From: Deroplatys truncata
Taxonomy: Eukaryota; Arthropoda; Insecta; Mantodea; Mantidae
Reading direction: 5' to 3'
DNA: 64,000 nt
NCBI GenBank assembly: GCA_030765065.1
Contig: CM060978.1
Coordinates: 60,783,421 to 60,847,420, forward strand
Part shown: positions 147 to 63,068 of the stretch, in pieces
How the letters are laid out: each line of letters starts with the position of its first letter
How positions within the stretch are numbered: the stretch's first letter is position 1
Position numbers and translations under genes: made by a program
Notes under the pieces: model-generated
Databases searched by the model: none
What the model saw: only the letters and a program-made list of their open reading frames with translations
Told to the model about the DNA's origin: nothing

Positions 147-960
147 TAAGGGTCATTCAAATGAAACCCGGTCACTTGTGTAAAGTAACGGTAGCGATTT
201 TATTAACTCAAAAATAGTCGCCAAAACTGTTGGCATATTTATCCCATTGCGACACTAGCCGGTCGATTCCATCTTTGAAGAAGCTAGTAGGCTGCTGTCG
301 GACCCAGGCCTGCACCCCTTCAAACACTTCGTCGTCCGTTGTGAATCGATGTCCGCGAATATCTTGTTTTAGAGCTCCATAAACATGAAAGTCACACGGT
401 GAAAGGTCTGGTCTGTACGGTGGATGTTCTAGCCTTTCCCATCGAAACTGCTGCAATGTCATCTTCACCGCATTGGCAGTGTGTGGACGGGCATTATCAT
501 GCCGGAGAATAACGCCATTGGACAACATGCCTGGGCGTTTCGACTTGATGACTCGTCTAAGGTTCTTGATAACGCTGGGCATAGATGGTGGTTCCACGTT
601 CCAAGAACTCGACAACCAGTGGGCCCTTGTGGTCAAAAAAGGACATCATGACCTTACCAGAACTGATGTGTACGGCCTTTGATTTCTTTGGAGGTGGTGA
701 AGTCGCAAGTTTCCACTGCTTGCTCAGACTCACTCCTCATTGTTCCTGCTTACTCGTCTTCATGTTCAGTAGTGGACGATAACTTGTCTGACCACCTTCT
801 CTTCGGCGTGAAACCACACTGTCGCTATGCAACGTCAAACGTTGCACACGTTGTAGTCGCTCTATCAATAGATGGTGCCACCATACACGCAGTTACGTGA
901 TGCCACTTTACGTGTAGTGCAAAGTAGACGCACTGACCAGGTTTCATTTGAATGCCCTCA
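147..960 (-). mobile_element. Internally deleted mariner-like element with TIRs
   Basis: The ends are inverted copies of each other: the left starts TAAGGGTCATTCAAATGAAA and the right, read on the minus strand, starts TGAGGGCATTCAAATGAAAC. A TA dinucleotide lies outside each end (145-146, 961-962), the normal Tc1/mariner target duplication. Only about 0.81 kb remains, against about 1.3 kb for a typical mariner. The DNA-binding half of the transposase is missing and only the C-terminal catalytic part is readable. The element cannot move by itself, though a related transposase could in principle mobilise its ends. Confidence 0.85.
208..760 (-). pseudogene. Mariner transposase, C-terminal catalytic fragment
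   Basis: The longest open stretch (636 down to 208) holds HDNARPHTA, the second catalytic Asp region, then PYRPDLSPCDF with the third Asp, then TTDDEVFEGVQAWVRQQP and a terminal WDKYANSFGDYF, the standard order of a mariner C-terminus. Upstream in another frame, GKVMM and FLERGTTIN-type residues continue the homology to about 760, so at least one frameshift is present. The DETW block with the first catalytic Asp and the N-terminal helix-turn-helix are not found. This is a dead fragment of a DD34D-type transposase, lying between TIRs at 147 and 960. Confidence 0.85.
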
Positions 961-5259: not shown

Positions 5260-6331
5260 TGAGGCAGTGTTTTTAACACTTAAATGATTTCAGTCAAATT
5301 ATATAATATATAAATTCAATAACAGCACGCCTTGAAGCAGTATGTTTATGTAATTACTTGTAAAATGTATGTAACAGTCATTGCATATGTTTATATTATT
5401 GTATACATGTTCAATAATGTTATATGAATATATTACGTAATTTAATAATGTAGCAGCTGTGAGATATAGGTCAAAAGAAGCTAACAAAGAGGTAACAATG
5501 AGGTAACCCTGAGCCAATAATGAGTAAGAAAGTTTAATAGTACTACTTGGGATTCTTGGAGTAACAATAATGTAATTTTAGTGACAGTTATATAATAGGC
5601 AATTAACAACCAGAAAAAGCTTTAGTTAAATGAAGGTATTCTATTGGAGTATGATTAGCCAATCAGAGACTTGAAATACAGAAATTTACAAGTTTAGACG
5701 GCTGTAATCAATTCAGTTGCCTGCAGACAGAGTTACTAACCAGACGCAAAAAATTTCCTCGAGAAGTATAATACGTATTCATGTGAGATGAAAAATAGTA
5801 TACTTGCACTTTTTAATAAGTATTAAATAAAATGATCTCACAGCTCTGTATATCATTGAAGTGTTATTTAGTTTGTGTCAAGGATTAATAAAAAGGAGTG
5901 AATTAAAACTAATAATCTGTGTAAGCCTAAATTCTTGTCGCATCACGCCCTGCCAAGACTTTCATGTCTCTAACAATAATACTGGCGCAGTGGAGGAAAT
6001 ATAATTACTTAATACTTAAAGAAACAATTTAATTACAAAGTTAATATTTTTTAAACTTGGGGCAAAGGGCACCTGAAAGCACATTTGGGACGAACGCTAC
6101 GGGAAACTGTTAACTATTCGTGCGGTTGCAACTACTACAAGTTCGGATCCCCAACAGTTGAAATATAATACAGCATCTACAAACTGACCTTCAATACAAA
6201 AATATAACATCTTCAAATTGACGCCCAAAGCGTGGTTCAAACAACGTAAAGAACAATTCTACTTCAAATTGGCGTCCATAATAGGAGATAAATAAATAAA
6301 CAACTCCAACGTAAAGACAATATCTTCTTCA
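5260..6331 (+). mobile_element. Family A solo-LTR-like element, copy A2
   Basis: It starts TGAGGCAGTGTTTTTAAC and ends TATCTTCTTCA with a 4-bp duplication TTAT (5256-5259, 6332-6335). At 1072 bp it is the longest copy because its 3' end carries extra tandem units: TCTTCAAATTGACGCCC near 6213 and TACTTCAAATTGGCGTCC near 6260, each followed by an ACGTAAAGA-type spacer. An internal ACTGGCGCAGTGGAGG (about 5987) resembles a tRNA-Ser primer-binding site. No coding capacity. Confidence 0.88.
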
Positions 6332-7234: not shown

Positions 7235-8174
7235 TGAGGCAGTGTTTATAACACTTAAATAATTTGTCTAATTATATAATACGTAAATTTAATAACAGCC
7301 CGCCTTGAAGCAATATGTGTATGTTATAATTTGTAAAATGTATGCAAGTCATTACATATGCTTGTATTATTGTATCCATGTGTAATAATGTTTGTGACTA
7401 TATTGTGTAATTTAATAATGTAGGAGCTGTGAGAAATAGGTCAAAGTTGGTAACAATGAGGAAACCTTGAGTCAATAATGAGTAAGAAAGTTTAACAGTA
7501 CTACTTGTGATTCTTGGAGCACAATAATGTAAATTTTGAGACAGTTTAAAAATAGCCAATCAACAACCAGAAAAAGGTTCTATTGGAGTAGAATTAGCTA
7601 ATTAGGAACTGAAATATAGCAAAATTTACAAATATAGAAGTCAGTTGCCTGCAGAAACCGTTACTAAGCAGACGCAAAAAGGGTCCGCAAGAAATATAGT
7701 ATATATTCGTGAGACGAAAATAAGTTTACGTGTTAAAAAGTGTAATTAATTAATAAAAAGAATCTCACGGCTCTCTATATCAATGAAGTGTTATTTTAAT
7801 CGTATCAAGTATTAATAAAAGGAGTGAAGTAAAATTATAATCTGTGTAAGGTACATTCTTGTCCCATCCCGCCCTGCCAAGATAACTATGTCTCTAAAAT
7901 AATACTGACGCAGCCAGGCAAACATAAATATTTAATACTTAAAGAAACAGTCAAATTACAAAGTTAATATTTTTTTAAACTTGGGGCAAAGGGCACCTGA
8001 AAATATATTTGGGGCGAAGGATACCGGAAACTGTTTACTATACATGCGGTTCAACTACTACAAGTTCGGCTCCCCAACAGTTTGTAATATAATACAACTC
8101 TTTATAACAAACTACTTCTTCAAATTGACGCGCAAAGCGTGGTGCAAATAACGTAAAGAAAACAAACTTTTTCA
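7235..8174 (+). mobile_element. Family A solo-LTR-like element, copy A3
   Basis: It starts TGAGGCAGTGTTTATAAC and ends AACTTTTTCA, with a 4-bp duplication TCTG (7231-7234, 8175-8178). The flanks rejoin to CATCTGCACGCACGAAGC, nearly the same as CATCTGCACGGCACGAAGC at 7085-7105, so a paralogous empty site confirms the boundaries. One tandem unit is present near the 3' end (CTTCAAATTGACGCGC). Confidence 0.9.
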
Positions 8175-10318: not shown

Positions 10319-11355
10319 TGAGGCAGTGTTTTTATCACGTAAATGATTTTAGTCAAATTATATAATATGTAAATTCAATAACAGCTCGCCTTGAAGTAAT
10401 ATGTGTATGTAACAATTTGTAAAATGTATGTAACAGTCATTGCATATGCTTATATTACTGTAAACATGTTCAATAATGTTATGTGAATGCATTACGTAAT
10501 TTAATAATGTAGGAGCTGTGAGAAAAATAGCTATAAAGTTGCTAACAATGAGGTAACCTTGAGGCAATAATGAGTAAGGAAGTTTAAATGCTACTAGCTA
10601 TTATTAGAGCAGCAATAATGTAAATTTTTGAGACAGTTTAAAAAAATAGCCAATCAACAATCAGAAAAAGTTTTAGTTAAGTGAAGGTATTCTATTGGAC
10701 TAGGATTAGCCAATCAGGGACTTGAAATACAGAAATCTACAAATTTAGGTGGTTGAAAAACAGTTCAGTTGTCTCCAAACAGTGCTCATAACCAGACGCG
10801 TTGCTTCTAGACAGTGCTCCTAACCAGACGCGAGATGTGTCCTCGAGAAATTAATAACGTATTCGTGTGAGACGAAAACAGTGTACGTATTAAAAAGTGC
10901 AAGTATTAAATAAAAGAATCTCACAGCTCTCGATATCAGTGAAGTGCTATTTAATTTGTGTCAAGGATTAATAAAACGGAGTGAATTAAAACTTAAAACT
11001 ATAATGTGTGTAAGCCACATTCTGGTCTCATCACGCCCTGCCAAGACTTCCATGTCTCTAAAATAAATACTGACGCAGCCGAGGCAAACATAAATGTAAT
11101 ATATAAAGAAACAGTAAAATTACAAAGTTAATATTTTTAAACTTGGGGCGAAGTCTACCGGAAACTGTTTACAATACGTGCGGTTGCAACTACTTCAAGT
11201 GTTCGGCTCCCCAACAGTTGAAATATAATACAACTCCTACTTCAAATCGGCTTTTCATACGTAGCAGCAAACAAGGTAAAGAACAATTCTACTTCAAATT
11301 GGCGTCCATACGTGGAGCTAAATAAATAAACAACTACAATAAACCAACTTCTTCA
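10319..11355 (+). mobile_element. Family A solo-LTR-like element, copy A4
   Basis: It starts TGAGGCAGTGTTTTTATC and ends CAACTTCTTCA with a 4-bp duplication ACTT (10315-10318, 11356-11359). A local 40-bp duplication in the middle repeats the CTAACCAGACGCG motif (about 10787 and 10822). Two 3' units are visible, CTTCAAATCGGCTTTTCATA and TACTTCAAATTGGCGTCC. Confidence 0.88.
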
Positions 11356-21254: not shown

Positions 21255-22538
21255 CGAAGGCAGTCCCAGGAGTACCCAACCCGATGTATAGGTAGTGGTT
21301 GTGTTTCAAACAAATGACTATGGTAGAAAGTACCAACCTTATAAAGCTTAAGTTTGAAGTTTGATAACGCTATATTGTTTAGTAATTGTTTGGCAGCCAT
21401 CAATAGTGAACGCCGTCAGCAAATCTGTAAACATGGATAAAACTGGTCATCGTTATGTGATACATTACTTTCATTTGAAAGGTCTCAGTCCAACTAATAT
21501 TAAGGCTGAGCTAGGTACTACTCTGGGGCAGTCTGCTCCTTCGTTTACAACAGTAAAATATTGGGTGGCAGAGTTTAAGCGAGGCTGTACGAGTTGCCAA
21601 GACGAACATAGCAGTGGTCACCAGACCAAATGAGGTTACCACGCCAAAATTGTGAGGAAAGCCACAAAATGGTATTGGATGACCGTCAACTGAAAGTGCG
21701 TGAGCTAGCAGACATCGTAGGCATTTCAAAAAGTGCTGTACATCGCATACTGACTGAAAATTTGGACATGAGAAGGCTGTGCACAAGATGGGTGCCGTGT
21801 TTACTCACAATGGAACAAAAACAGCGTCGTGAGGATGTTTCAGTCGAGTGTTTGGCAATGTTTCGCTACAATAAAGCCGAGTTTATGTGTCGATTCATAA
21901 CCATGGATGAAACATGGGCCCATCACTTCATACCTGAGACGAAGGAACAGTTAAAACAGTGGATTAAAAGGGGAGAATCAGCTCCAAAGAAGCCGAAGAC
22001 AGTTCCATCTGCAGGAAGGTCATGGCGTCAGTTTTTTGGGATGCGCGTGGAACAATGTTCATTGATTATCTACAAAAAGGAAAAATAATAAATGATGAGT
22101 ATTATGTGAACTTATTTCAGAGTTTGAACGATGAAATCAATCAAAAACGGCCGCATTTAGCGAAAAAGAAAATTTTGTTTCATCAAGACAATGCACCAGA
22201 TCACACATCCATTATCGCCATATCCAAAATCAATTAAAGTTCGAGCTGCTTCATCATGCACCCAATTCGCCAGATTTAGCCCCCTCTGATTGTTTTCTGT
22301 TTCCAAGTTTCAAGAAATGGCTTGGGGTAAAAGATTTGCCAACAATGAAGAGGTGGAGTCTGGAGTTGATGGTTATTTTGCAGAACTCGACGGTTCTCAC
22401 TCTAAGCAGGGTATCGAAGCTATTGGACATTGCTGGGTAAAATGTATCGCACTGAAAGAGACCTTGTAGAGAAATCCAGATGTTTTTCCAAAATGTTTGT
22501 TTTCTTTGTTAGGTCGGGTACTTCTGCGACAGCCCTCA
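21255..22538 (+). mobile_element. Near full-length mariner element with TIRs
   Basis: The left end CGAAGGCAGTCCCAGGAGTA pairs with the right end, which on the minus strand reads TGAGGGCTGTCGCAGAAGTA. About 20 of 27 positions agree. TA flanks both (21253-21254, 22539-22540). At 1284 bp it has the usual mariner length and carries a whole but broken transposase gene on the plus strand. Confidence 0.9.
21433..22440 (+). pseudogene. Mariner transposase, full span, disrupted
   Basis: The start is ATG at 21433 (MDKTGHRYVIHYFHLKGLSP), with TVKYWVAEFKRG of the N-terminal helix-turn-helix region. A stop at 21631 and a frame change lead to MVLDDRQLKVRELADIVGIS and VHRILTENLDMRRLCTRWVP, then DETW with the first catalytic Asp at 21906. 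Another frame change near 22020 gives VFWDARG, then HQDNAPDHTS with the second Asp near 22190, and after a further shift SPDLAPSDCFLFP with the third. Spacing of the last two is about 34 residues, so DD34D. At least three lesions: a stop and two frameshifts. Transposition would cut and paste the element at TA sites, but this copy cannot make protein. Confidence 0.9.
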
Positions 22539-28390: not shown

Positions 28391-29178
28391 TACTATTCTT
28401 ATAAACGCTTATTCTCCATATGTTTCAGGTTAATCGAGATATCGATATGTTAATCTTATTGCTAATTTTCTTGTAGATACAAGGGGAATCGGTAGGCTTT
28501 AAGCGATAGTCAAATACTTTAAGAGCTGGTTGCTATGTGGAGTATCCCATTCTCTTTGCATTACCAGGACAAAAAATGAATAACCAATTTCCATTTGAGA
28601 AAAAGTATAAGTATTGGAAAATTTAAGGGAATAACAAGCAATATTTCGAAAATGACTCACTCAACAAAATAAATGCATATGACATAAATTGTGTATTTAA
28701 ACGCGATCTGCATTTTTGGTGTCGTAAAGTTTTGTCTATCTCTTATGGTTTACCAGTTATGCAAAAGTCGCTCACAATGAAGAATGCTTTTGGAAACGTT
28801 CCCAGAAAATTCAAGATATACATTTCATTTGTCATGAAAGTATCTTGAACATGCGATATTTTAATCAAAATCGTTAGAGCCATTTTTGAGAAATTTAATT
28901 TTCGAAAAATGTTCCATGTAAAGGGTGGAGGGATTTTCTTGAAAACCTTCTTGTTGCACCTCTGGAAGATACTGAACCTAAATACCAAGTTTGGTGTTTA
29001 TCCGACTGTTCGTTTCTGAATTATGCTGTTCACACACACACACACATGAACATGATTACAAAAATGCTTTTTTAGGATTCAGGTGGTCTCAAAACATGTA
29101 TTTCCGGTGAAATATCGGTATTGAATTTTTGGTTGGAATACAATACTTCCCCTACTTACTATATGTAGTAGTGAAAGT
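28391..29178 (+). mobile_element. Family B element, 5'-truncated
   Basis: It enters at CTTATAAACGCTTATTCTCC, lacking the first ~45 bp, and runs to TATATGTAGTAGTGAAAGT followed by AAAA. The internal A-rich site GGACAAAAAATGAATAACCA is empty here, the reference state for the self-insertions elsewhere. The minus-strand frame 28988-28743 is repeat translation. Confidence 0.8.
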
Positions 29179-29189
29179 AAAAATAAAAT

Positions 29190-29973: not shown

Positions 29974-30919
29974 TGAGGCAGTATTTTTAACACTTGAATA
30001 ACTTTAATTAAATTATATAATATGTAAATTCAATTACAGCCCGCCTTGAAGCAATAAGTATGTAATAATTTGTGAAAATGTATGTAACAGATATTGCATG
30101 TGGTTATATTATTGTAAACATGTTTAATAATGTTATGTGAATGCATAACTTAGTTTAATAGTGAAAGAGCTGTGAGAATAATAAGTTTATGGTTGCTAAC
30201 AGTGAGGTAAGAATGAGGTAACCTTGAGGCAATAATGATTTTGAGAGTTTGAATGCTACTAGTCATGATTAGAGCAACGATAATGTAAATTTTGTGACAA
30301 TTTAAAAATAGCCAATCAACAGACAGAAAAAGCTTTAGTAAAATGCAGGTATTCTATTGGACTAGGATTAGCCAATCAGAGACTTGAAATACAGAAGTTT
30401 ACGGGTTTGGACGGTTGAATTATATTCAGTTGCCTGCAGACCTTGGTAGTAACCGGATGGAAGATGTGTTCTCTAGAGAAATATTACGTATTCGTGTGAA
30501 TCGTAAAATAACTATACGCGTTAACAAAGTGCAAGTATTAAATAAAAGAATCTCACAGCTCTTGATATCAGGTAGTACTATTTAATTTGTGTCAAGGATT
30601 AATAAAACGAAGGGAATTTAAACTTAAAATCTGTGTAAGCCTACATTCTTGTCGCACCACACCCTGATTAAGAGAAACGTGTCTCTAAAGTAATAGTGAC
30701 GCAGCCTAGGCAAACATAAACATAAATACTATCTATAGAATCAGTTTAATAACAAAGTTAATATTATTTTTTTAAACTTGGAGGGTAACAGCAAAAATAC
30801 ATCTTAAAATCGGCTTTACATATGTAGCAGCATATTACGTAACAAACAATCTTCTTCAAAATTGACGTGCATACGTGGAGTTAAATTATATAAACAACGT
30901 AAAAAACAATACTTCTTTA
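29974..30919 (+). mobile_element. Family A solo-LTR-like element, copy A5
   Basis: It starts TGAGGCAGTATTTTTAAC and ends ATACTTCTTTA (final CA decayed to TA), with a 4-bp duplication ATTT (29970-29973, 30920-30923). Two 3' units are visible: CTTAAAATCGGCTTTACATA and CTTCAAAATTGACGTGCATA. Confidence 0.85.
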
Positions 30920-32620: not shown

Positions 32621-33558
32621 TGAGAAATATGTTTGTTTGTTGCTGCTACGTATGAAAAGCCGATTTGAAGTAGGAGTTGTATTATATTTCAACTGTTGGG
32701 GAGCCGAACTTGTAATAATTGCAATCGCACGTATAGTAAACAGTTTCCGGTAGCCTTTGCACCAGGTTTAAAAAATTATTAATTTTGTAATTAAACTGTT
32801 CCTTTAGATATTTTATACTTATGTTTGCCTCGGCTGCGTTAGTATTATTGTTAGAGACACTTTTCTCTTAGCAGGGTTGTGATACGACAAGAATGTAGGC
32901 TTACACAGATTTTAAGTTTTAATTCACTCCTTTTTATTAATCCTTGACACAAATTAAATAGCACTTCACTGATATCGGGAGCTGTGAGATTCTTATATTT
33001 AATACTTGTACTTTTTAACACGTATACTATTTTCGTCTCACACGAATACATAATTAACTTCTCGAGGACACATCTCGCGTCTGGTTATGGGCACTGTTTT
33101 GGGGCAACTGAATTGATTTCAACCGTCTAAACTTGTAAATTTCTGTATTTCAAGTCTCTGATTGTCTAATCCTATTCCAATAGAATACCTCCATTTAACT
33201 AAAGCTTTTTCTGGTTGTTGATTGGCTATTTTTAAACTGTCTCAAAATTTATTATATTGCTGCTCCAATAATGACGCATTTAAACTTCCTTACTCATTAT
33301 TGCCTCAAGGTTACCTCATTGTTATCTCATAGTTAGCAACGTTTAACTTATTATTCTCACAGCTGCTACATTATTAAATTACGTAATGAATTCACATAAC
33401 ATTGTTAAACATGTTTACAATATTATAAGCATATGCAATGACCGTTACATACATTTTACAAATTATTACATACACATATTGCTTCAAGGCGGGCTTTTAT
33501 TGAATTTATATTTATATAATTTGACTGAAACCATTCAAGTTTTAAAATAACTGCCTCA
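32621..33558 (-). mobile_element. Family A solo-LTR-like element, copy A6
   Basis: On the minus strand it starts TGAGGCAGTTATTTTAAA and ends AACATATTTCTCA, flanked by AGCT (32617-32620) and AGTT (33559-33562), a 4-bp duplication with one change. One 3' unit, CTTCAAATCGGCTTTTCATA, is followed by CGTAGCAGCAACAAACAAAC. The end ATATTTCTCA is shared with copy A8 rather than with the CTTCTTCA majority. Confidence 0.85.
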
Positions 33559-34189: not shown

Positions 34190-35148
34190 TAGGGCAGTAT
34201 TTTTAACACTTAAATTATTTCAGTCTAATTATATTATATATAAATTCAATAACAGCCCACCTTAAAGCAATGTGTGTACCAATATATAAAAAGTGTATAT
34301 TACAGTCATTGTGTATATTTATATTTTTGTATACATGTAATATGTTATCTGAATATATTACGTAATTTAATAATGTAGGAGCTGTGTGAATAATGGGTTA
34401 AAAGTTGCTAACAATGAGGTGACCTTGAAGCAATAACGAGTAAGAAAGTGTAATAATGCTACTAGTCATTCCTGGAGCAACAATGATATAATTTTTGTCA
34501 CAGTTTATAAAATAGCCAATCAACAACCAGATAAAAGTTTAATTTAAATAAAGGTATTCTATTGGATTAGGAATAGTAATCAGAGACTTGAAATACAGAA
34601 ATTTACAAATTTAGGCGGTTGAAATCAAGTCAGTTTTTTGTAGACAGGGCTCCTAACTGGACGCGTTGCTAGTAGACAGTGTTTCTAAACGGATGCGAGA
34701 TGTGTCCTCGAGAAATTTAATACGTATTTTGTGTGAGAAAATAGTTTACGTGTTAAAAACGCAAGTATTTAATAAAAGAATCTTACAGCTCTCTATATCA
34801 GTGAAGTGTTATTTAAATCGTGTCAAGCATTAATAAATGGAGTGATGAAAAACTTAAAATCTGTGTAAGCCTACATTCTTAAGTCGCACCACCTCCCTGC
34901 TAAGGCATTCATGTCCCTAAAAAAAATATAAATACTGACGCAGCCGAGGCAAACATAAATATATAATATTTAAAGAAACAGTCAAAATTACAAAGTTAAT
35001 ATTTTTTCAAACTAGCGGCAAAGGCCACCGGACCGGAAAGTACATTTGGGGCGAAGGCTACCGGAAACCTTTTACCATACGTGCGGTTGCAACTTCTTCA
35101 AATTGGCTCCCAAAGCGTGGGACAAATAACAATATAACTACTTCTTCA
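34190..35148 (+). mobile_element. Family A solo-LTR-like element, copy A7
   Basis: The start is altered to TAGGGCAGTATTTTTAAC. The end is CTACTTCTTCA, with a 4-bp duplication ACAC (34186-34189, 35149-35152). The last unit CTTCAAATTGGCTCCCAAAG with CGTGGGACAAATAAC is close to a tRNA-Lys primer-binding site. Confidence 0.85.
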
Positions 35149-37494: not shown

Positions 37495-38248
37495 GAATTA
37501 GGTAGAGGAAGTATTGCATTCAACTCAAAAAGGTTATACTGAGATTTCACTGGAAACATATATTTTGAGGTTCTCTGAAAATTTTGATGTGCCACAATCA
37601 CATTACTTTCTCTGTACTGTGCTACAAACTATTATTACAGCTTATAATACAGATAAACCTCCATTACGCATTTCGTTGTAGGCATAAAAACAATACGCTA
37701 AGCTTTAGCAATCGTGAAATCCTTTCAAAGCCGGTCGCCTTGAATTTCTGTTGAGTTTGCATTACATGAAAAAGAAGGAAAGAAAGAAAGAATAAAGCAA
37801 TAGCGTTTTGCCATTGTGAAAACTATATATAAAGTATCTGAAAACTCATACCAATAAAAGGAATATCTATGAAATGGTTAGCACCACCAAAAATCTAATT
37901 TGACATAGCTGAAATATGTGCTTTGACGAGATCTACATATTGGTTTGCTTATAAGAGAATGTCTATGTCCTTCGGTTTTCCCATTACACCAAAATCACTT
38001 GAAATGAAAAGGATTTCACAGATTACTCGTAGAAAATTCAGGATACATATTTTGCCATGAAAATTATTAGCCATTTTTGAGAAAATAATGAAACATTTTC
38101 CATGTAATAGGTACTTTAGGATGGGGTGATTTTCCTGAAAAATCTCTGTGTAGCGTCCTTAGAAAATGAACTCAACTGCTTAAAGTCTGGTGTACTATAT
38201 TTGATACAAAAATGTGTCTTTTAAGCTTTTAAGTTTGATCGCTTTTTT
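37495..38248. mobile_element. Old family B fragments in opposite orientations
   Basis: 37495-37585 is a minus-oriented 3' piece (GTAGAGGAAGTATTGCATTC, GAGATTTCACTGGAAACATA). 37590-38240 is a plus-oriented diverged copy (ATCACATTACTTTCTCTGTA, CTTTGACGAGATCTACATAT, CCATTTTTGAGAAAATAATG). Both belong to the older subfamily. The right end is where the next copy begins, in a T-run. Confidence 0.55.
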
Positions 38249-39119
38249 ACTTTCTCTACTACGTATAGTAAGTAGGGGAAGTATTGTATTCCACCCAAAA
38301 ATTCGATACCGAGATTTCACCGGAAATATATGTTTTGAGACCCCCTTAATCCAAAAAAAGCATTTTTGGAAACATGTCCGTGCTGGTGTCTGTGTGTGTG
38401 TGCCTGAAACAACATAACTCAGAAACGAACAGTCGGATAAACACCAAACTTGGTATTTAGGTTCAGTATCTTCAAGAGATGCGACACGAAGGTTTTTAAG
38501 AAAATCCCCCTGCCCAGATTACCCTTTACATGGAACATTTTTCGAAAATTTTAATTTTCTCAAAAATGGCTCTTAACGATTTTGATTAAAATACCAGTTT
38601 ACGATGTTTTCATGACAAATGAAATATATATCTCGAATTTTCTGGGAATGTCTGCAAAAGTATTCTTCATTGTGAACGACTTTTGCATAACTGGTAAACC
38701 ATAAGAGATAGGCAACATTTTACTACACAAAAAATGTAGATCGCGATAAAATACACAATTTATGTCATATACATTTTATTTGTTGAGTGAACTATTTTCG
38801 AGATATTGCTTGTTATTCCCTTAGATTTTCTAATATTTATATTTTCTAATACTACTTTCTAATACTTTTTCTCAAATGGGAATTCGTTATTCATCTTTTT
38901 CCATTTCCTGTACATACAAAGAGAATGGAATGCTCCACATAGCAACCAGCTCTTAAAAGATTTGAGTATCGCTTAAAGTCTACTATATTCCCCTTGCACC
39001 TACAAGAAAATTAGCAATAAGATTAACATCTCGATTAACATGAAGCATATGGAGAATAAGCGTTTGTAAAAATAGTTTGTACAAGAGTAGAGAAAGTCAT
39101 GTGAGTGTAACACATCAGA
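38249..39119 (-). mobile_element. Family B element, complete, in a T-run
   Basis: On the plus strand it begins ACTTTCTCTACTACGTATAG after TTTTTT and ends GTGAGTGTAACACATCAGA before TTTTT, so the flanks are homopolymer T on both sides. Both 12-bp inverted-repeat halves are intact (ACTTTCTCTACT and AGTAGAGAAAGT at about 39086). The microsatellite core is GTGTCTGTGTGTGTGTGCC. At 871 bp it is a good reference copy. Confidence 0.88.
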
Positions 39120-39124
39120 TTTTT

Positions 39125-42423: not shown

Positions 42424-42864
42424 ATAGCTCAAGTACAAAAGATAACCAAACTCTGAATTTAATCTCAGTGTGTTTCAAAGATATGACACGGTTTTCCCTC
42501 GCCCCAAACTACGCTTTGCATGGAAAATCTCTCGTTATTTTCTATTTTCTCAAAAATGGCTCTAACGATTTTGATTAAAATATCATATGTTTAAGATATT
42601 TTCATGACAAATGAAATGTATGTCTCGAATTTTCTGGGAATGTCTCCAAAAGCATTCTTCATTGTGAACGACTTTTGTATAACTGGTAAACCATAAGAGA
42701 TACACAAAGTTTTACTGCACAAAAATGTAGACCGCATTAAAATACACAATTTATGTCATATTGTCATTTTTGTTTAGCGAACCATTTTGGAGATATTGCT
42801 TGTTATTCCCTTAAATTTTCCAGTACTCATGCTTTTCCTCAAATGGAAATTCGTTATTCCTTTT

Positions 42865-44603
42865 ACTTTCTCTATTACGTATAGTAAGTAGGGGAAGTAT
42901 TGTATTGTACTCAAAAATTCTATACCGAGATTTCACCCGAAATACATGTTTTGAGACCCGCTGAATCCAAAGAAAGCATCTTTGCAAACATGTCCGTTTG
43001 TCTGTGTGTCTGTGAACAGCATAACTCAGAAACGAACAGTCGGGTAAACACCAAACTTGGTATTTAGGTTCAGTATCTTCCAGGAATGCTACACGAAGGT
43101 TTTCTAGAAAATCCCCCCATCCCAGGATACCCTTTACATGGAAGATTTTTCGAAAATTTTAATTTTCTCAAAAACGGCTCTAACGATTTTGATTAAAATA
43201 TCATATGTTTAAGATATTTTCATGACAAATAAAATGTATATCTTGAATTTTCTGGGAATGTCTCCAAAAGTGTTCTTCAGTGTGAACGACTTTTGCATAA
43301 CCGGTAAACCATAAGAGGTAGAGAAATTTTTACTACACAAAAAATGTACATCGCGTTAACATACACAATTTATGTCATATACATTTTTTTTTGTTGAGTG
43401 AACCATTTTCGAGATATTGCTTGTTATTCTCTTAAATTTTTCAATACTTATTTTCTTAAATGGGAATTCGTTATTCATTTTTACTTTCTCTACTACGTAT
43501 AGTAAGTAGGGGAAGTATTGTATTCCACCCAAAATTTCGATACCGAGATTTCACCGGAAATGTTTTGAGACTCACTGAATCCAAAAAAAGCAATTTTGGA
43601 AACATGTCCGCGTGTGTGTCTGTGTGTCTGTGAACAGCATAACTCAAAAACGAAGAGTCGGATAAACACCAAACTTGGTATTTAGGTTCAGTATCTTTTA
43701 GAGATGCGACACGAAGGTTTTCAAGAAAATCCCCCCACCCCAGACTACCCTTTACATGGAACATTTTTCGAAAATTTTAATTTTCTCAAAAACGGCTCTA
43801 ACGATTTTGATTAAAATATCATATGTTTAAGATATTGTCATGGCAAATAAAATGTATATCTCGAATTTTCTGGGAATGTCTCCAAAAGTATTCTTCATTA
43901 TGAACGACTTTTTCATAACTGGTAAACCATAAGAGATAGACAAAATTTTACTACACGAAAAATGTAGATCGCGTTAAAATACATAATTTATGTCATTTAC
44001 ATTTCTTTTGTTGAGTGAAGCGTTTGCGAGATATTGCTTGTTATTCCCTTAAATTTTCCAATACTTATACTTTTTCTCAACTTCGTTATTCATTTTTTTT
44101 ATGTTCTGTACATGCAAAGAGAATGGAATGCGCCACATAGCAACCAGCGTTAAAATATTTGACTATTGCTTAAAACCTACCATATTCCCCTTGCATCTAC
44201 AAGAAAATTATCAATAAGATTGACATCTCGATATCTCCATTAACATGAAGCATATGGAGAATAATCGTTTGTAAAAATAGTTTGTACAAGAGTAGAGAAA
44301 GTCATGTGAGTGTAACACATCAGATTTTTTTGTATTTGATATGCAAAGAGTATTAATCTGTGGCAAAGGGAATGGTTCTGCACCTAGCAACCAGCTATTA
44401 AGAGATATGTATATGCTTAAAGGCTACTGTATTTCTATATTGCCCTTGTAAATATATATTCCCCTTACATCTAGAAGAAAATTAGCAATAAGATAGAGTC
44501 TGCAAATGTTTATCTCGATTAATATGAAGTAGATGGAGAATAAGAGGTTGTAAAAATAGTTTGTACAAGAGTAGAGAAAGTCATGTGAGTGTAACACATC
44601 AGA
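42865..44603 (-). mobile_element. Middle family B copy of the nest
   Basis: Its pieces are 42865-43482 (ACTTTCTCTATTACGTATAG to AATTCGTTATTCATTTTT) and 44325-44603 (TTTTTTTGTATTTGATATGC to GTGTAACACATCAGA). The right piece has diverged around CTGTGGCAAAGGGAATGG. Confidence 0.8.
43483..44324 (-). mobile_element. Inner, complete family B copy
   Basis: On the plus strand it begins ACTTTCTCTACTACGTATAG and ends GTGTAACACATCAGA, 842 bp, with both inverted-repeat halves intact and T-runs outside. The 97-aa minus frame 43764-43471 crosses its end and is repeat translation. Confidence 0.88.
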
Positions 44604-45343: not shown

Positions 45344-46129
45344 TCACTCACATGACTTTTTCTACTCTAGTACAAAATATTTTTACAAACGCTTATTCTC
45401 CATATGCTTCATGTTAATCGAGATATCGAGATGTTAATCTTATCGCTAATTTTCTTGTAGGTGCAAGGGGCATTGGTAGGCTTTAAGTGATAGTCAAATA
45501 TTTTAACAGCAGGTTGCTATGTGGAGTACTCCTTTCTCTTTGCATTACCAGGACAAAAAATGAATAACGAATTCCCATTTGAGAAAAAGTATAAGTATTG
45601 GAAAATTTAAGGGAATAACAAGCAATATATTGAAAAAGGTTCAGTCAAAAAAATGTATACGACATAAATTGTGTATTTTAACGCGATCTACATTTTTTGT
45701 GCAGTAAAATCTTGTCTATTTCTTATGGTTTACCAGTTATGCAAAAGTTGTTCACAATGAAGAATACTTTTGGAGACATTCCCAGAAAATTCGAGATATA
45801 CATTTCATTTGTCATGAAAATATCTTAAACATATGATATTTTAATCCAAATCGTTAAAAATTTTCCATGTAAAGGGTAATCTGGGGTGGGGGGGATTTTC
45901 TTGAAAACCTTCGTGTAGCATCTCTGGAAAATACTGAACCTAAATACCAATTGGTGTTTATCCGACTGTTCGTTTCTGAGTTATGCTGTTCACAGACACA
46001 CAGACGGACATGTTTTCAAAAAAAAAATATTCAGGGATCTCAAAACATGTATTTCCGGTGAAATCTCGGTATCGAATTTTTGGGTGGAATACAATACTTC
46101 CGCTAATTACTGTACGTAGTAGAGAGAGT
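45344..46129 (+). mobile_element. Family B element, nearly complete
   Basis: It starts TCACTCACATGACTTTTTCT directly after an A-run and ends ACGTAGTAGAGAGAGT before AATAAC. The internal A-rich site (GGACAAAAAATGAATAACGA, about 45551) is empty. The plus frame 45983-46201 is repeat translation. Confidence 0.82.
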
Positions 46130-47185
46130 AATAACGACCTTTCACATATAAGAGAGCTTGGGGTGGATAATATAATGCAAATCTTTGAGTTGTATGCTTG
46201 AACGATGCTGTATTCCGATAAGAGAAACTAAACAATAAGCATTTCAGTGTTTAAATGCATTCCTCTTAAGCCACCTGAATGAGCTATCACTTGCTCTACT
46301 TCATAATTAAAAAACTGGAAGTTGTTGTTTTCGAACCAAAATTTCTGCATGACGGCTAACGCATCAGATGCAGCGATTCCTTCTCCGAAGAGACTTCGTT
46401 CGCGCCGCTGAAGATATCCATCGCAGTTGTGGACGAAACATCTGGAACTCCTGTATCGGCATAACAGCCCGAAAAATACTTCCAATTATATTTGCGACTT
46501 CGGTTGTGAAAGCCTACATTCTCTCAAAACTTCTGTATTCCGTTTTAACCAGAAATTTACATTTTGAGCTTCTCAAAGGAAAGAAGAAATAAATACTTTT
46601 GGGAAGCAAATTCATGTGTGTTGTGGACGCACAAAAAGCAAACATTCGAAAAAAAACGTAAAACTTTATATATAAATCTTTATACTTATATTTATTGTAT
46701 ATTCTGGAACTTGAAATTAGATACAGTGTTATGTTCTTACACAGGAATACATTAATAGAATTTTTGCATCAGTCCCTTGTTCACATTTGTGAGAAACAAC
46801 CAGGAGTCGTGTCAGTAAAGGAATCTGACGTGAATACCTTCACGAGTTTCTCTACCAATGAAAATTCATATATATTCATTATATACATAATATTATATTT
46901 CATATAAAAGTCATTCTTCTATTCTCTTACGTTATTCACGAAAAGTTTAGCTTGTGTATGATTAGAAATAAAGCTTAGCAATATAAAACATGGGGAAAAG
47001 ACAATCAAATCTTATAGCTGTAGTAACCAGCTATTGTAATAGAAAGACTAAAAGAGAATCATAAATGTTCAAATACCTTGTCAGCTGTACCAGGGAAAGT
47101 GTAAGCATATGGCATATAGGAAACGACTAATGCTACGGAAAAAATGACGAAATTTGTTTTATGAGCTCTGCAATATTTTATTTTG
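46130..47185. other. Unassigned AT-rich sequence
   Basis: About 1.05 kb. Frames at 46228-46485 (minus) and 46368-46592 (plus) overlap a less AT-rich patch at 46330-46480 but show no domain I can name. Confidence 0.4.
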
Positions 47186-54013: not shown

Positions 54014-55036
54014 TGAGACATTTAAATAATTTCAGTCTAATTATATAATATGTAAATTCAATAACAGCCTGCCTTTAAGCAATACGTGTATGTAATAATT
54101 TGTAAAATGTATATAACAGTCATTGCATGGGCTTATATTATTGTATCCATGTATAATAATGTTATGTGAATATAGTACGTAATTTAATAATGTAGGAGCT
54201 GTGAGAATATTGAGTTAAAGTTGCTAACAATGAGGTAACAATGAGGTAACCTTGAGTCAATAATGAGTAAGATAGTTTAACAGTACTACTTGTAATTCTT
54301 GGAGTAACAATAAAGTAATTGTAGTGACAGTTTATAAAATAGCCAAGCAACAACCAGAAAAAGCTTTAGTTAAATGAAGGTAATCTCTTGGAGTAGGATT
54401 AGCCAATCAGAAACTGAAATATAGCAAAATTTACAAATCTAGAAGTCAGTTGCCTGCAAACAAACAGTGTTCCTAACCGGACGCGAGACACATCCTCGAG
54501 AGATTTTATACGTATTCGTGTGAGACGAAAAAATAGTTTACGTATTAAAAGTGTAATTAATTAATAAAACATCTCACAGCTCTCTGTCTCTCTATCGGTG
54601 AAGTGTTATTTAAATCGTGTCAAGCAGTAATAAAAGGAGTGAAGTAAAATTATAATCTGTGTAAGCCTACATTCTTGTTGTATCACAACCCTGCCAAATA
54701 TCCATGTCTCTAATATAAATACTGACACAGCCGAGGCAATCATAAATACATAATACTTAAAGAAACAGATAAATTGCAAAGTTAATATTTTTTAAACTTG
54801 GAGGCAAAGGCCACCTGAAAGTACATTTGGGGCAAAGGCTACCGGAAACTGTTTACTATACGTGCGGTTGCAACTACTACAAGTTCGGCTCCCCAACAGT
54901 TGAACTACAATACAAACTACTTAAAATTGACGCCCAAAGCGTGGTGCAAATGACGTAATAAACCACCATTTTCAAATTGGCTTCCATACGTGGTGCTAAA
55001 ATAAAATACAAAACAACGTAATAAACATATTTCTCA
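54014..55036 (+). mobile_element. Family A solo-LTR-like element, copy A8
   Basis: The 5' end is shortened to TGAGACATTTAAATAATTTC (about 14 bp missing after TGAG). The 3' end is AACATATTTCTCA as in copy A6. It is flanked by ACAG (54010-54013) and ACAT (55037-55040), a probable duplication with one change. Two 3' units are visible, one with CGCCCAAAGCGTGGTGCAAA. Confidence 0.78.
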
Positions 55037-55239: not shown

Positions 55240-57070
55240 AATACCAAAATATGGTGTGCTATATTCATATGACTCTCTCCAGCCTCTATCGTTTATTAGT
55301 GAGTATACAAACTATTCATATTCAAGCTTATTTTTCTATATACTACACGTTAATTCAAATAAACCTTTACAGAAATAGCTACATTACACATTTCGCTATA
55401 AATACAAAGAGAACAGCAATAATCAACTATTTAATACCTGGACGCTATACATTCCGTGCTCTTCTCATGCATTCGCGAGAAACAACAGAATGCTAAAAGG
55501 GCTTTAAATAATGCCCAAGTAATGAACAATTCGAACCATTAATAACAAATATGTCAGAAATGGCTGATGGCACAGAAAATATATTTGAATTAAATTCTGT
55601 GTTTTAAAGAGATATACATTTTTTGTGTAATACATTTTCGTCTATAGCTTAAGGTTCACGAGTTATACAAGATTATACAGAGTTCCTTCAGAATGAAAAG
55701 AACTTTAAAGGCTGTTCTCAGAAAATACATGTTATACATATTTTTTTCATATAAACATCATTAATATATACTACTTTAATCAAATTGTTTAGCGCCATTT
55801 TTCAGACAATGAAAAATTTCTAAAAAAATGTTCCATGTAAAGGGTAGTTTGGGGTGGGAGACTTTCTTTAATATCTGCGTGTCACATCTTTAGAAGATGC
55901 TGAATCTGAGGCAGTATTTTTAACGCTTAAATAATTTCAGTCTAATTATATAATATGTAAATTCAATAACAGCCCGCCTTGAATCAATAAGTGTGTGTAA
56001 TAATTTGTAAAATGTATATAACGGTCATTGCATATGCTTATATTATTGTATCCATGTGTAATTAAGTTATGTGAATATATTACGTAATTTAATAATGTAT
56101 GAGCTGTGAGAATAATAAGTTAAAAGTTGCTAACAATGAGGTAACTTTGAGGCAATAACGAGTAAGAAATTTTAACAGTACAACTTGTGATTCTTTGAGT
56201 AACAATAATGTAATTGTTGTGACAGTTTATAAAATAGCCAATCAACAACCAAAAAAAAAGCTTAGGTTAAATGCAGGTATTCTATTGGAGTAAAAAATAG
56301 CCATTAAGAGACTTGAAATACATAAATTTACAGGTTTAGACGGTTGAAATCTAGTCAGTTGCCTGCAGACAGTGATTGTAGCCGGAAGCGTGATGCATCC
56401 TCAAGAGATTTTATACGTATTCATGTGAGACGAAAACTAACTTTACGTGTTAAAAAGTGCAATTAATTAAACAAAAGAATCTCACAGCTCTCGATATCAG
56501 TGAAGTGATTTTTAATTTGTGTCAAGGATTAAAAAAAGGAATGAATTAAAACTTAAAATCTGTGTAAGCCTACATTCTTGTCACATCACGCCCTGCCAAG
56601 ACTTCCATGTCTCTAACAATAATACTGACGCAGCCGAAGCAAACATAAATATTTAATACTTAAAGAAACAATAAAATTACAAAGTTAATACTTTTTTAAA
56701 CTTGGGGCAAAGGCCACCTAAAAATACATTTGTGGCGAAGGCTACCGGAAACTGTTTACTATACGTGCTGTTGCAACTACTACAAGTTCGGCTCCCCAAC
56801 CGTTAAAATACGATGCAACTCCTTCAATACAAACTACTTCAAATCGGCTTTTCATACGTAGCAGCAGCTACCTACTTCAAATTGACGCCCAAAGCGAGGT
56901 GCAAACAACGTAACAAACCAACTACTACAAATCAAAATACCAGAGGATTTCTTTTGGGGATCCATGGGTCTCAAAATGCGTATTTCCGGTGAAATCTGGG
57001 TGTTGAATTTTTTTTATGGAATGCAAAATCTTCTCTACGTATTAATTATGTGGTAGAGAAAGAAAATTTA
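55240..57070 (+). mobile_element. Family B element split by copy A9
   Basis: 55240-55906 runs from TATTCATATGACTCTCTCCA to GAAGATGCTGAATC. 56930-57065 resumes AATCAAAATACCAGAGG, CATGGGTCTCAAAATGCGTA, TTCCGGTGAAATCTGGGTG and ends TTATGTGGTAGAGAAAGA. Removing A9 and one AATC gives GATGCTGAATCAAAATACCA, which matches the undisturbed family sequence (GATACTGAACCTAAATACCA). Confidence 0.8.
55907..56929 (+). mobile_element. Family A solo-LTR-like element, copy A9
   Basis: It starts TGAGGCAGTATTTTTAAC and ends CAACTACTACA, with a 4-bp duplication AATC (55903-55906, 56930-56933). It lies inside a family B copy, so it is younger than that copy. Two 3' units are visible: CTTCAAATCGGCTTTTCATA and TTCAAATTGACGCCCAAAGC. 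Confidence 0.9.
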
Positions 57071-58538: not shown

Positions 58539-58640
58539 ACCACTCGATAACCTGATGTCACCAAGAATGTCATGCAGTCTCTCTGTCTTGAACGTCATTC
58601 TCAATCGACTGTTGTGAGAAAGCTGTATTTTAGGAGTTGT

Positions 58641-59544
58641 TGCTACGTATGAAAAGTCAGTTTTAAGTAGGAGTTGTATTATATTTCAACTGTTGGGGAG
58701 CCGAAATTGTAGTAGTTGCAACCGCACGTATAGTACCCGGTTTCCGGTAGTCTTCGCCCCAAGTTTAAAAATATTAGCTTTGTAATTTGACTGTTTCATA
58801 GATATTATGTTTTTGTTTGCTTCGGCTGCGTCAGTATTATTTTAGAGACATGGATGTCTTGGCAGGACGTGATGCGACAAAAATGTAGGCTTACACAGAT
58901 TTTAAGTTTTAATTCACTCCTTTATATTAAATTTGACACAAATTAAATAGCACTTCACTGATATCGAGAGCTGCGAGAGTATTTTATTTAATGCTTGCAC
59001 TTTTTAACGCGTATACTATTTTCGTCTCACACGAATACGTAATTAATTTCTCGAGGACACATCTCGCATATGGTTATGAGCACTGTCAGGAAGAAACTGA
59101 ACTGTTTTCCACCGCCTAAATTTGTATATTTCTGTATTTCAAGTCTCTGATTGGCTATTCCTAGTCCAATCGAATACCCTCATTTAACTAAAGTCTTTTC
59201 TGGTTGTTGATTGGCTATTTTTTTTAAACTGTATCAAAAATTTACATTATTGCTGCTTTAATGACTAGTAGCATTTACACTTCCTTACTTATTATTGCCT
59301 CAAAGTTACCTCACTGTTAGCAACTTTAAACCTATTTTTTCTCACAGCTCCTACACTATTAAATTACGTAGTGCATTCACATAACATTGTTGAACATGTT
59401 TACAATAATATAAGCATATGCAATGACTGTTCCATACATTTTACAAATTATTACATACACATATTGCTTTAAGGCGGGCTGTTATTGAATTTACATATTA
59501 TATAATTTGACTAAAATCATTTAAGTGTTAAAAATACTGCCTCA
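58641..59544 (-). mobile_element. Family A solo-LTR-like element, copy A10
   Basis: On the minus strand it starts TGAGGCAGTATTTTTAAC and ends CTTTTCATACGTAGCA. GTTGT flanks both ends (58636-58640, 59545-59549), a perfect 5-bp duplication. At 904 bp it is the shortest copy and stops inside the first 3' unit. Confidence 0.85.
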
Positions 59545-62087: not shown

Positions 62088-63068
62088 TGAGTCAGTATTT
62101 TTAACACTTAAATGATTTTAGTGAAATTATATAATAAAAAATATAATAACAGCCCGCCTTAAAGCAATATGTGTATGTCACAATATATAAAAGGTGTATA
62201 TTAGTCATTGTATATGTTTATATTACTGTATACATGTGTAATAATGTTATCTGAATGTAATTACGTAATTTAATAATGTAGGAGCTGTGAGAATAATAGG
62301 TTAAAAGTTGCTAACAATGAGGTAACCTAATACTGCTACTAGTCATTCTGGGAGCAACAATAATGTAATTTTTGTGACAGTTTATAAAATAGCCAATCAA
62401 CAACTAGAAAAAAGCTTAAGTTAAATAAAAGTATTCTATTGGATTAGGAATAGCCAATCACAGACTGGAAATATAGAAATTTATAAATTTAGGCGGTAGA
62501 AATCAAGTCGTTGCTTGTAGACAGCGCTCATAACTGGACGTGTTGGTTGTAGACAGTGTTCCTAACCGGACAAGAGATGTGTCCTCGAGAAATTTAATAC
62601 GTATTCAGTGTGAGACGAAAATAGTTTACGTGTTTAAAAAGTGCAAGTATTTAATAAAAGAATTTCACAGCTCTCTATATCAGTGAAGTATTATTTAAAT
62701 CGTGTCAAGGATTAATAAAAAGTAGTGAAGTAAAAATTATAACCTGTGTAAGCCTACATTCTTCTGCCGCACCACGCCTTGCAAAGAAATCCATGGCTCT
62801 AACAATAACACTGACGCAGCCGAGGCAAATATAAATATATAACATTTAAGGAAACAGTCAAATTAAAAACTTAATATTTTTAAATTTGGGACGAAGGCTA
62901 CCGGGTACCATACGTGCGGTTGCAACTTCTTCAAGTTCGGCTGCCCAACATAAGAACTACAGTACAACACCTACTTCAAATTGGCTTTCCATAGGTGAAG
63001 CAACAACTTACCTCAAATTGGCTCCCAAAGCGTGGGGTAAATAATAACAATACAAAACCACTACTTCA
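62088..63068 (+). mobile_element. Family A solo-LTR-like element, copy A11
   Basis: It starts TGAGTCAGTATTTTTAAC and ends CACTACTTCA. The flanks ACGC and ATAT do not match, so no duplication is evident. Either it has decayed or the copy is rearranged. Two 3' units are visible, one with CAAATTGGCTCCCAAAGCGT followed by GGGGTAAATAA. There is a small deletion around 62325. Confidence 0.8.

Follow-up and report, generated by a model that had tools for sequence, protein, structure and literature searches.

In the textbook long terminal repeat (LTR) retrotransposon a single primer-binding site (PBS) fixes a single LTR end, the primed PBS setting the 3' end of the LTR. We analysed a group of LTR elements, family A and its relatives, in a 64,000-nucleotide stretch of the genome of the mantis Deroplatys truncata (contig CM060978.1, positions 60,783,421 to 60,847,420; this whole stretch is referred to as the window) and in the 4.29-Gb assembly containing it, and found that their LTR end lies at different places within arrays of PBS-containing units. 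Several described systems resemble part of this arrangement. The Osvaldo lineage of insect Ty3/Gypsy elements has a tRNA-Lys PBS and LTRs of about 1-2 kb (997-2055 bp in Culex), and in three of its elements a conserved stretch of 29-30 nt spans the LTR/PBS boundary (PMC3286476, of which, as of the other papers cited, parts are drawn on here). The present group likewise has a tRNA-Lys PBS, and its LTRs in the window are 926-1072 bp long; however, the parts of PMC3286476 drawn on describe neither PBS arrays nor moving LTR ends, one Osvaldo element having a tRNA dimer at this place. Three Culex elements of the Mag lineage have tandem repeats in the 5' untranslated region, near the leader, but in the same parts of that paper these are not described as units of PBS and LTR tip. 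HIV-1 provides partial duplications of the PBS (the MAL-type insertion, PMC3185550) and cultured viruses with multiple PBSs (PMC1084362), but these are natural partial duplicates or cultured variants, and the relevant parts of the two papers describe neither PBS units resident in the LTR nor a moved LTR end. In LTR1 lentiviral vectors an extra PBS adjoining the LTR determines which sequence is copied, but these vectors were engineered to drop leader sequence rather than to extend the LTR (PMC5542766, in part). Extra PBS copies are thus already known as HIV-1 variants; what appears to be new here is that LTRs hold arrays of relic cassettes and end now at one copy, now at another. In the literature searched, outside which most subscription papers lay, we found neither LTR ends described as moving along PBS arrays nor relic PBS cassettes in LTRs.

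The window contains 11 family A LTR insertions, all without an internal region, i.e. complete solo LTRs. They were located by BLAST of the body of one copy, A2, against the window and their ends were then read outward, which moved the starts some 180 bp upstream from where the BLAST match had first begun. A2 itself (5260-6331, + strand) runs from TGAGGCAG to CTTCTTCA between exact target-site duplications (TSDs) TTAT. The other copies begin in the same way, with an altered form of TGAGGCAG in A7, A8 and A11, and end in a tip like CTTCTTCA. Eight of the 11 have an exact 4-bp TSD, the flanks of A6 and A8 matching at three of four positions and A11 having none; identical 4-bp flanks at precisely these ends in 8/11 copies are beyond chance (binomial P ~4e-16).

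The 3' ends of these LTRs are built of a variable number of units, each consisting of AAT, a PBS-like word, a spacer and a tip ending in CA. A2 contains, all on the + strand, an older unit 0 at 6140-6181 (AGT, the tRNA-Asp/Lys PBS-like word TCGGATCCCCAACAG and a spacer to the tip CATCTACA), a decayed b-like unit at 6182-6215 (AAC and TGACCTTCAATAC.. to the tip CATCTTCA, recognised by eye against the b unit of locus L013), unit c at 6216-6266 (AAT at 6216-6218, TGACGCCCAAAGCGTGGT at 6219-6236, spacer and tip CTACTTCA) and unit d at 6267-6331 (AAT, TGGCGTCCATAATAGGAG at 6270-6287, spacer and the terminal tip CTTCTTCA). Unit 0, with TCGGCTCCCCAACAG, is found in 9/11 copies. An earlier, sequence-only reading of this DNA had proposed that the number of units at the 3' end varies between copies, and a unit-by-unit reading of all 11 confirms it: leaving unit 0 aside there are none in A1, one in each of A3, A6, A7 and A10, and two in each of A4, A5, A8, A9 and A11, while the 'two or three' given for A2 is fair, c and d being clear and the third being the b-like unit seen by comparison with L013. 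The exact word that it quoted, TGGCGCCCAA, does not occur in the window, where the nearest form is one change away.

The PBS-like words were scored against 24 fly tRNAs. By this measure the PBS for tRNA-Lys-CTT was the best fit for unit c in 6/6 copies and for unit d in 3/4, the exception being A2's own unit d, which is closest to Arg-TCG. For unit 0 the best fit was tRNA-Asp in 7/9 copies (with a tie in A1 and Lys-TTT best in A11), and unit b gave no fit above shuffles in 5/6. The earlier description of the units as PBS plus leader-like spacer plus LTR tip, matching the PBS of relatives and not a mere minisatellite, holds for c and d; units 0 and b match the Lys PBS poorly. Within the window, the 10-mer count is weak by itself (5 matches against a shuffle mean of 1.6, with at least 5 in 2/100 shuffles), and CA precedes the PBS-like word by 3 nt in only 7/11 words (edit distance up to 6). 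Outside the window, unit d occurs with a perfect PBS in L013, where its 22-nt spacer is identical to that of A2, and c-type spacers lie behind a perfect PBS in L031, L035 and L036. On a tree of the LTR bodies of the window copies, itself weak (2/8 inner branches well supported), unit d requires four changes for its four copies, which indicates that the last unit does not track descent. As part of the interpretation given below, we think it probable that the units at 6182-6331 are PBS cassettes that were absorbed into a solo LTR and have decayed there.

The genome provides the matching primer. Searching the assembly for tRNA-Lys ends yielded 169 matches; the first 100, which were listed, all end GTTGGGCG. 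About 85 of these 100 lie in a very large tandem tRNA-Lys cluster with a period of ~144 bp (G000:C9:191136769-191175541). Two tRNA-Lys genes were predicted in a 301-bp sample of this cluster (L096, 191137400-191137700); both end GTTCGAGCCCCACGTTGGGCG, and the PBS is therefore a perfect complement of the host tRNA-Lys. The earlier assignment of the word to tRNA-Lys was thus right, and full-length relatives carry the same word directly after the LTR. No tRNA genes were found in the 64-kb window. A 23-mer from the family A body, present in 5/11 window copies, has 32,712 exact matches in the assembly (control, 0), and the predicted ancestral word, i.e. the tip, AAT and a perfect PBS, has 4,646 matches with up to two mismatches (reversed control, 0). 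The perfect 18-nt tRNA-Lys PBS has 5,432 occurrences, and in 4,721 of these CA stands exactly 3 nt before it; among 100 of the latter that were listed, 23 sit in 11 tandem clusters of less than 150 bp, judged by eye. When the search hit itself was left out and an edit distance of up to 4 was allowed, CA stood exactly 3 nt upstream in 43/52 PBS-like words, every other gap accounting for 0-5 of the 52. One exact 23-mer had no match in viral contigs or prokaryote genome contigs, nor did one tip-plus-PBS pattern in viral contigs.

The relation between these words and the LTR end is seen in full-length elements. A second LTR was found for 19 of the 24 candidates tried; no usable one was found for L034, L037, L050, L054 and L092, the first four having been searched over ~3.7 kb downstream only. 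The 19 pairs comprise a core set of 15 elements together with L060, which has a tandem arrangement, L056 and L091, in each of which the two LTR tails differ, and L083. Full-length relatives show the hallmarks of LTR retrotransposons, namely TSD-flanked TG..CA termini and paired LTRs with a PBS after the 5' LTR. In all 15 core elements the LTR terminates in a CA that lies exactly 3 nt ahead of a PBS word, and 13 have an exact 4-bp TSD; the exceptions are L058 and L018, the start of the latter being fused to the tail of another LTR, hence no TSD. A further PBS unit lies in the leader, past the LTR end, in 6/15 (L016, L011, L012, L028, L053 and L058) and is perfect in four of these six, while PBS-like words lie within the LTR in 12/15 (21 words at an edit distance of up to 5, of which one, in L057, is perfect). 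The PBS in use is perfect in 11/15 elements and is TGGCGCCACCAACGTGGGGC in the other four. The criterion for picking loci had been either a perfect word or CAACGTGGGGC ahead of the leader, which bears on this last count; where the search had hit another word than the one in use (L016, L028, L053 and L058), the one in use is perfect in 4/4 cases, compared with 1/21 LTR-resident words (Fisher P 4e-4). Single elements can contain several perfect primer sites, as the sequence-only reading had thought possible. LTR lengths differ among elements (771 bp in L028, 937 bp in L026, 1133 bp in L016 and 1333 aligned bp in L057), and the position of the LTR end within the PBS array is not fixed.

The clearest case is provided by L026 and L028, which are alike in LTR body (88.2%, 674/764), in the unit concerned (59/68) and in the second PBS with its leader (590/655). 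In L028, flanked by the TSD CAAT, the LTR ends ..CCGCGACA and is followed by a perfect PBS1, a spacer, a tip, a perfect PBS2 and the leader. In L026, flanked by ATTG, both LTRs include a decayed PBS1 (TGGCTTCCATACGTGGTG.) and the spacer up to the tip CCACTTCA, and it is PBS2 that is perfect; further upstream, its 3' LTR lacks ~130-145 bp that its 5' LTR has. One and the same unit is therefore leader in L028 and LTR in L026, including the 3' LTR, where it adjoins host DNA. The LTR-leader boundary is thus mobile; a single case may reflect gain or loss, so that the growth suggested by the earlier reading is one of two possible directions. Priming at a different PBS would directly yield the difference between the two elements.

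Our interpretation, which we consider probable, is that these elements carry tandem PBS cassettes in which the primed site sets the LTR end, copying of the tRNA renews that site, and misregistered transfer shuffles the cassettes. The structure is what the elements display; we infer the mechanism from this anatomy and from known PBS systems. The U5/leader junction would be a tandem array of cassettes, each formed by a PBS, a spacer and a tip ending in CA plus 3 nt, and reverse transcription would set the LTR 3' end directly upstream of the PBS primed by the tRNA. If a downstream PBS were primed, both LTRs would take in one cassette or several; if an upstream one were primed, cassettes would go back to the leader. 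The boundary shift itself is seen in the elements, with primer choice its presumed cause. The primed site, renewed by copying of the tRNA, would stay mostly perfect, and LTR-resident cassettes, which are not renewed, would decay; that pattern of perfect and decayed words is observed, and the cause we assign to it combines established retroviral knowledge with our own reasoning. For HIV-1, rebuilding of the PBS from the tRNA in plus-strand synthesis is described in the part of PMC1084362 drawn on here. With several PBS copies present, the second strand transfer, an annealing of PBS to PBS, may join partners that are out of register or that belong to two genomes packaged together; cassettes would then be duplicated, deleted or shuffled, the joint being the PBS.

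Misregistered transfer is proposed because the order of cassettes varies and because the LTR tails of some elements are unequal. We cut the arrays at their PBS words and grouped the spacers by single linkage at a lax threshold, after dropping five loci that repeated another. Of 61 spacers from 39 loci, 54 fell into 10 loosely drawn families (m1 and so on) and seven remained single. The orders found include m5-m6 (L009), m4-m5 (L053), m6-m4 (L054), m1-m1-m4 (L011), m1-m3-m1 (L017) and m6-m4-m2-m5-m2-m5 (L057); three of these close into a ring, m4 to m5 to m6 to m4, which speaks against one ladder subject to losses. For the window copies we considered a fixed order 0-b-c-d from which each LTR would retain a prefix, and rejected it on account of the cyclic orders and of L031, where d precedes c (by eye). 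Tips differ within a spacer family, so that joints directly upstream of the tip exist too. The two LTR tails of a single insertion differ in L056/L068, whose LTR bodies are 99.7% alike (TSD AAAG), and in L091/L094, where the 3' LTR has an additional c-type unit relative to the 5' LTR (bodies 93%, TSD ACAA on both sides). These unequal tails fit an out-of-register second transfer; a change after insertion is also possible. Tandem arrangements of the form LTR-internal-LTR-internal were seen at L009/L010 (period ~2.7 kb) and L059/L060 (~3.0 kb). A stronger version, which we put forward tentatively and rate somewhat below an even chance, is that the PBS array is a cassette-exchange system in which co-packaged genomes swap U5/leader cassettes during replication, no LTR 3' end is fixed and tRNA templating keeps the joint in use perfect.

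Several observations sit less easily with this interpretation. The gap between LTR end and PBS is 4 nt rather than 3 in L060. A6 and A8 share their terminal 14 nt despite having different last units, a pattern explained equally well by primer choice and by internal deletion or exchange. The in-use PBS of L049, L057, L061 and L062 (at ~1490 of each locus) contains the 2-nt insertion of TGGCGCCACCAACGTGGGGC, which copying of the tRNA should correct. The unit twins of L023 and L057 (below) could be the result of ordinary slippage, and a PBS extended to 24 nt in L074, L075 and L076 suggests that the primer is read through past base 18 in some elements. A search by leader word for full-length candidates of family A type gave 61 matches; of the 12 loci read, only three (L081, L083 and L084) have a perfect PBS next to the leader and nine have an altered one, and the tip is TTCA in 8/12. 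Finally, family A consists mostly of solo LTRs, only two of three full-length candidates tried (L083 and L091) giving LTR pairs.

Of these 12 family-A-type loci, 8 have A1, the short type, as their best LTR match. The LTRs of the L083/L093 pair are 93.6% identical, with an inexact TSD and 2.1 kb inserted in the 3' LTR. Of four stretches searched for family A LTR pairs ~4-6 kb apart, three held neighbouring copies that are ~85% alike. The fourth (L078) is a 3,947-bp tandem duplication that includes a family A LTR and is 99.93% identical over 1,501 bp. At ~1500 in L014, a family A LTR tail and its perfect PBS are followed by the same tail in inverted orientation, forming a tail-to-tail palindrome. 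As for the 2-nt insertion, a variant tRNA behind it or behind the TGGCGCCACC.. word was considered and rejected, no match being present among the 100 listed of the 169 tRNA-Lys-type ends.

Among other explanations, ordinary tandem-repeat turnover fares best, although we think it improbable. Here slippage of the polymerase, or unequal recombination, would make the U5 units multiply and shrink, the last repeat being simply where the LTR ends. Near-exact or exact unit twins could come from slippage (a 57-bp tandem pair in L023 and a two-unit block in L057), the c and d spacers are homologous, and A7 has lost unit 0 exactly from tip to tip. However, the LTR does not always contain the whole array, since PBS units continue in the leader in the six elements named above, and slippage within one LTR cannot put the leader segment of L028 into both LTRs of L026. 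We regard it as very unlikely that the PBS-like words are kept for some other role, as enhancer, RNA structure, small-RNA target or insulator, their likeness to a PBS being historical only: the changes TGGCTCCC and CCAWACG do recur in LTR-resident words of different subfamilies, as though a second form were maintained. Against this, the LTR end lies exactly 3 nt ahead of such a word throughout the core set, and the in-use word is a perfect tRNA complement in most of it.

The mechanism suggested by the sequence-only reading was faulty primer removal or template slippage at the LTR/PBS junction. Junction slippage is not sufficient, given the leader units past the LTR end and the differing cassette orders. 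Faulty primer handling finds some support in L074-L076. These three loci were the matches of the tRNA-Lys-end search that were fetched from outside the cluster, and hold no tRNA gene but LTR elements: in each, a family-A-type LTR is followed (~1497, oriented) by a PBS whose complementarity to tRNA-Lys continues to 24 nt, TGGCGCCCAACGTGGGGCTCGAAC. The fetched loci contain 43 perfect words in distinct contexts, and the six further tRNA bases past PBS position 18 are present in 0/40 of the others, L016 matching the first four, so that primer handling is not the general source of the units. Primer removal or read-through that adds PBS and leader to the LTR is thus the least probable of the explanations considered, a shade below a retained role: the units do begin with the 18-nt PBS and many PBS words have 2-nt insertions in mid-word, but the full run-on is confined to three words that were fetched for it, and read-through predicts neither leader-resident units nor cassette shuffling.

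The tRNA-Lys PBS, LTRs of mostly ~1 kb, the 4-bp TSD and a weak Ty3_capsid match together point to Ty3/Gypsy, and the family A group appears to be a large set of tRNA-Lys-primed, Ty3/Gypsy-like LTR elements, perhaps of the Osvaldo lineage. The capsid match is that of an L094 open reading frame (ORF) to PF19259, with an E value of 1.3e-4 and a score of 21.9 bits, below the cut-off of 29.1. The ORFs of L016 and L017 matched no Gag family. These two elements, of ~4.6 and ~4.2 kb, have one ORF each (312 and 305 aa) and no recognised retroelement domain in the part read, and look non-autonomous.

The remaining copies in the window, with their unit strings, are as follows. On the + strand, A1 (1423-2348, TSD GGCT) has unit 0 only (word at 2309-2326); A3 (7235-8174, TCTG) has 0 and c (8126-8143); A4 (10319-11355, ACTT) has 0, b (11248-11265) and d (11300-11317); A5 (29974-30919, ATTT) has b (30811-30828) and d (30863-30880); A7 (34190-35148, ACAC) has c (35104-35121) without unit 0; A8 (54014-55036) has 0, c (54928-54945) and d (54978-54995); A9 (55907-56929, AATC) has 0, b (56845-56862) and c (56883-56900); and A11 (62088-63068) has 0, b (62982-62999) and c (63019-63036). 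On the - strand, A6 (32621-33558) has units 0 and b (32645-32662), as does A10 (58615-59544, CAAC; b at 58642-58659). Directly upstream of unit 0, a 29-bp repeat (TAAACTTTGGGACGAAGGCCACCGGAAAG) occupies 2204-2260 in the LTR and is single in A4, A6, A10 and A11. The word TACTGRCGCAGCCGAGG, at 5980-5996 in A2 and at the equivalent place in other copies, altered in some, resembles the start of a tRNA-Ser PBS, and may be a still older primer site within the LTR.

The window also contains a second repeat family (38244-39124, 42510-44334, 28392-29187, 45345-46137 and others), whose longer copies are 81-88% identical across about 800-980 bp. There are two mariner-like transposase remnants, at 208-645 (- strand; a DDE_3 match below the Pfam cut-off) and 21612-22088 (+ strand; judged by eye).

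For annotation, these results carry a warning: in such families LTR length, PBS position and the comparison of LTR pairs are ambiguous. If our interpretation is correct, primer sites that lose remain in the LTR as decaying fossils. The thousands of copies would then preserve, in nature, which primer sites were chosen and where the second transfer went out of register, and would be numerous enough for this to be tested. Cassette exchange, if it does occur, would mean modular remodelling of LTRs within one family, and may contribute to the very high copy number.
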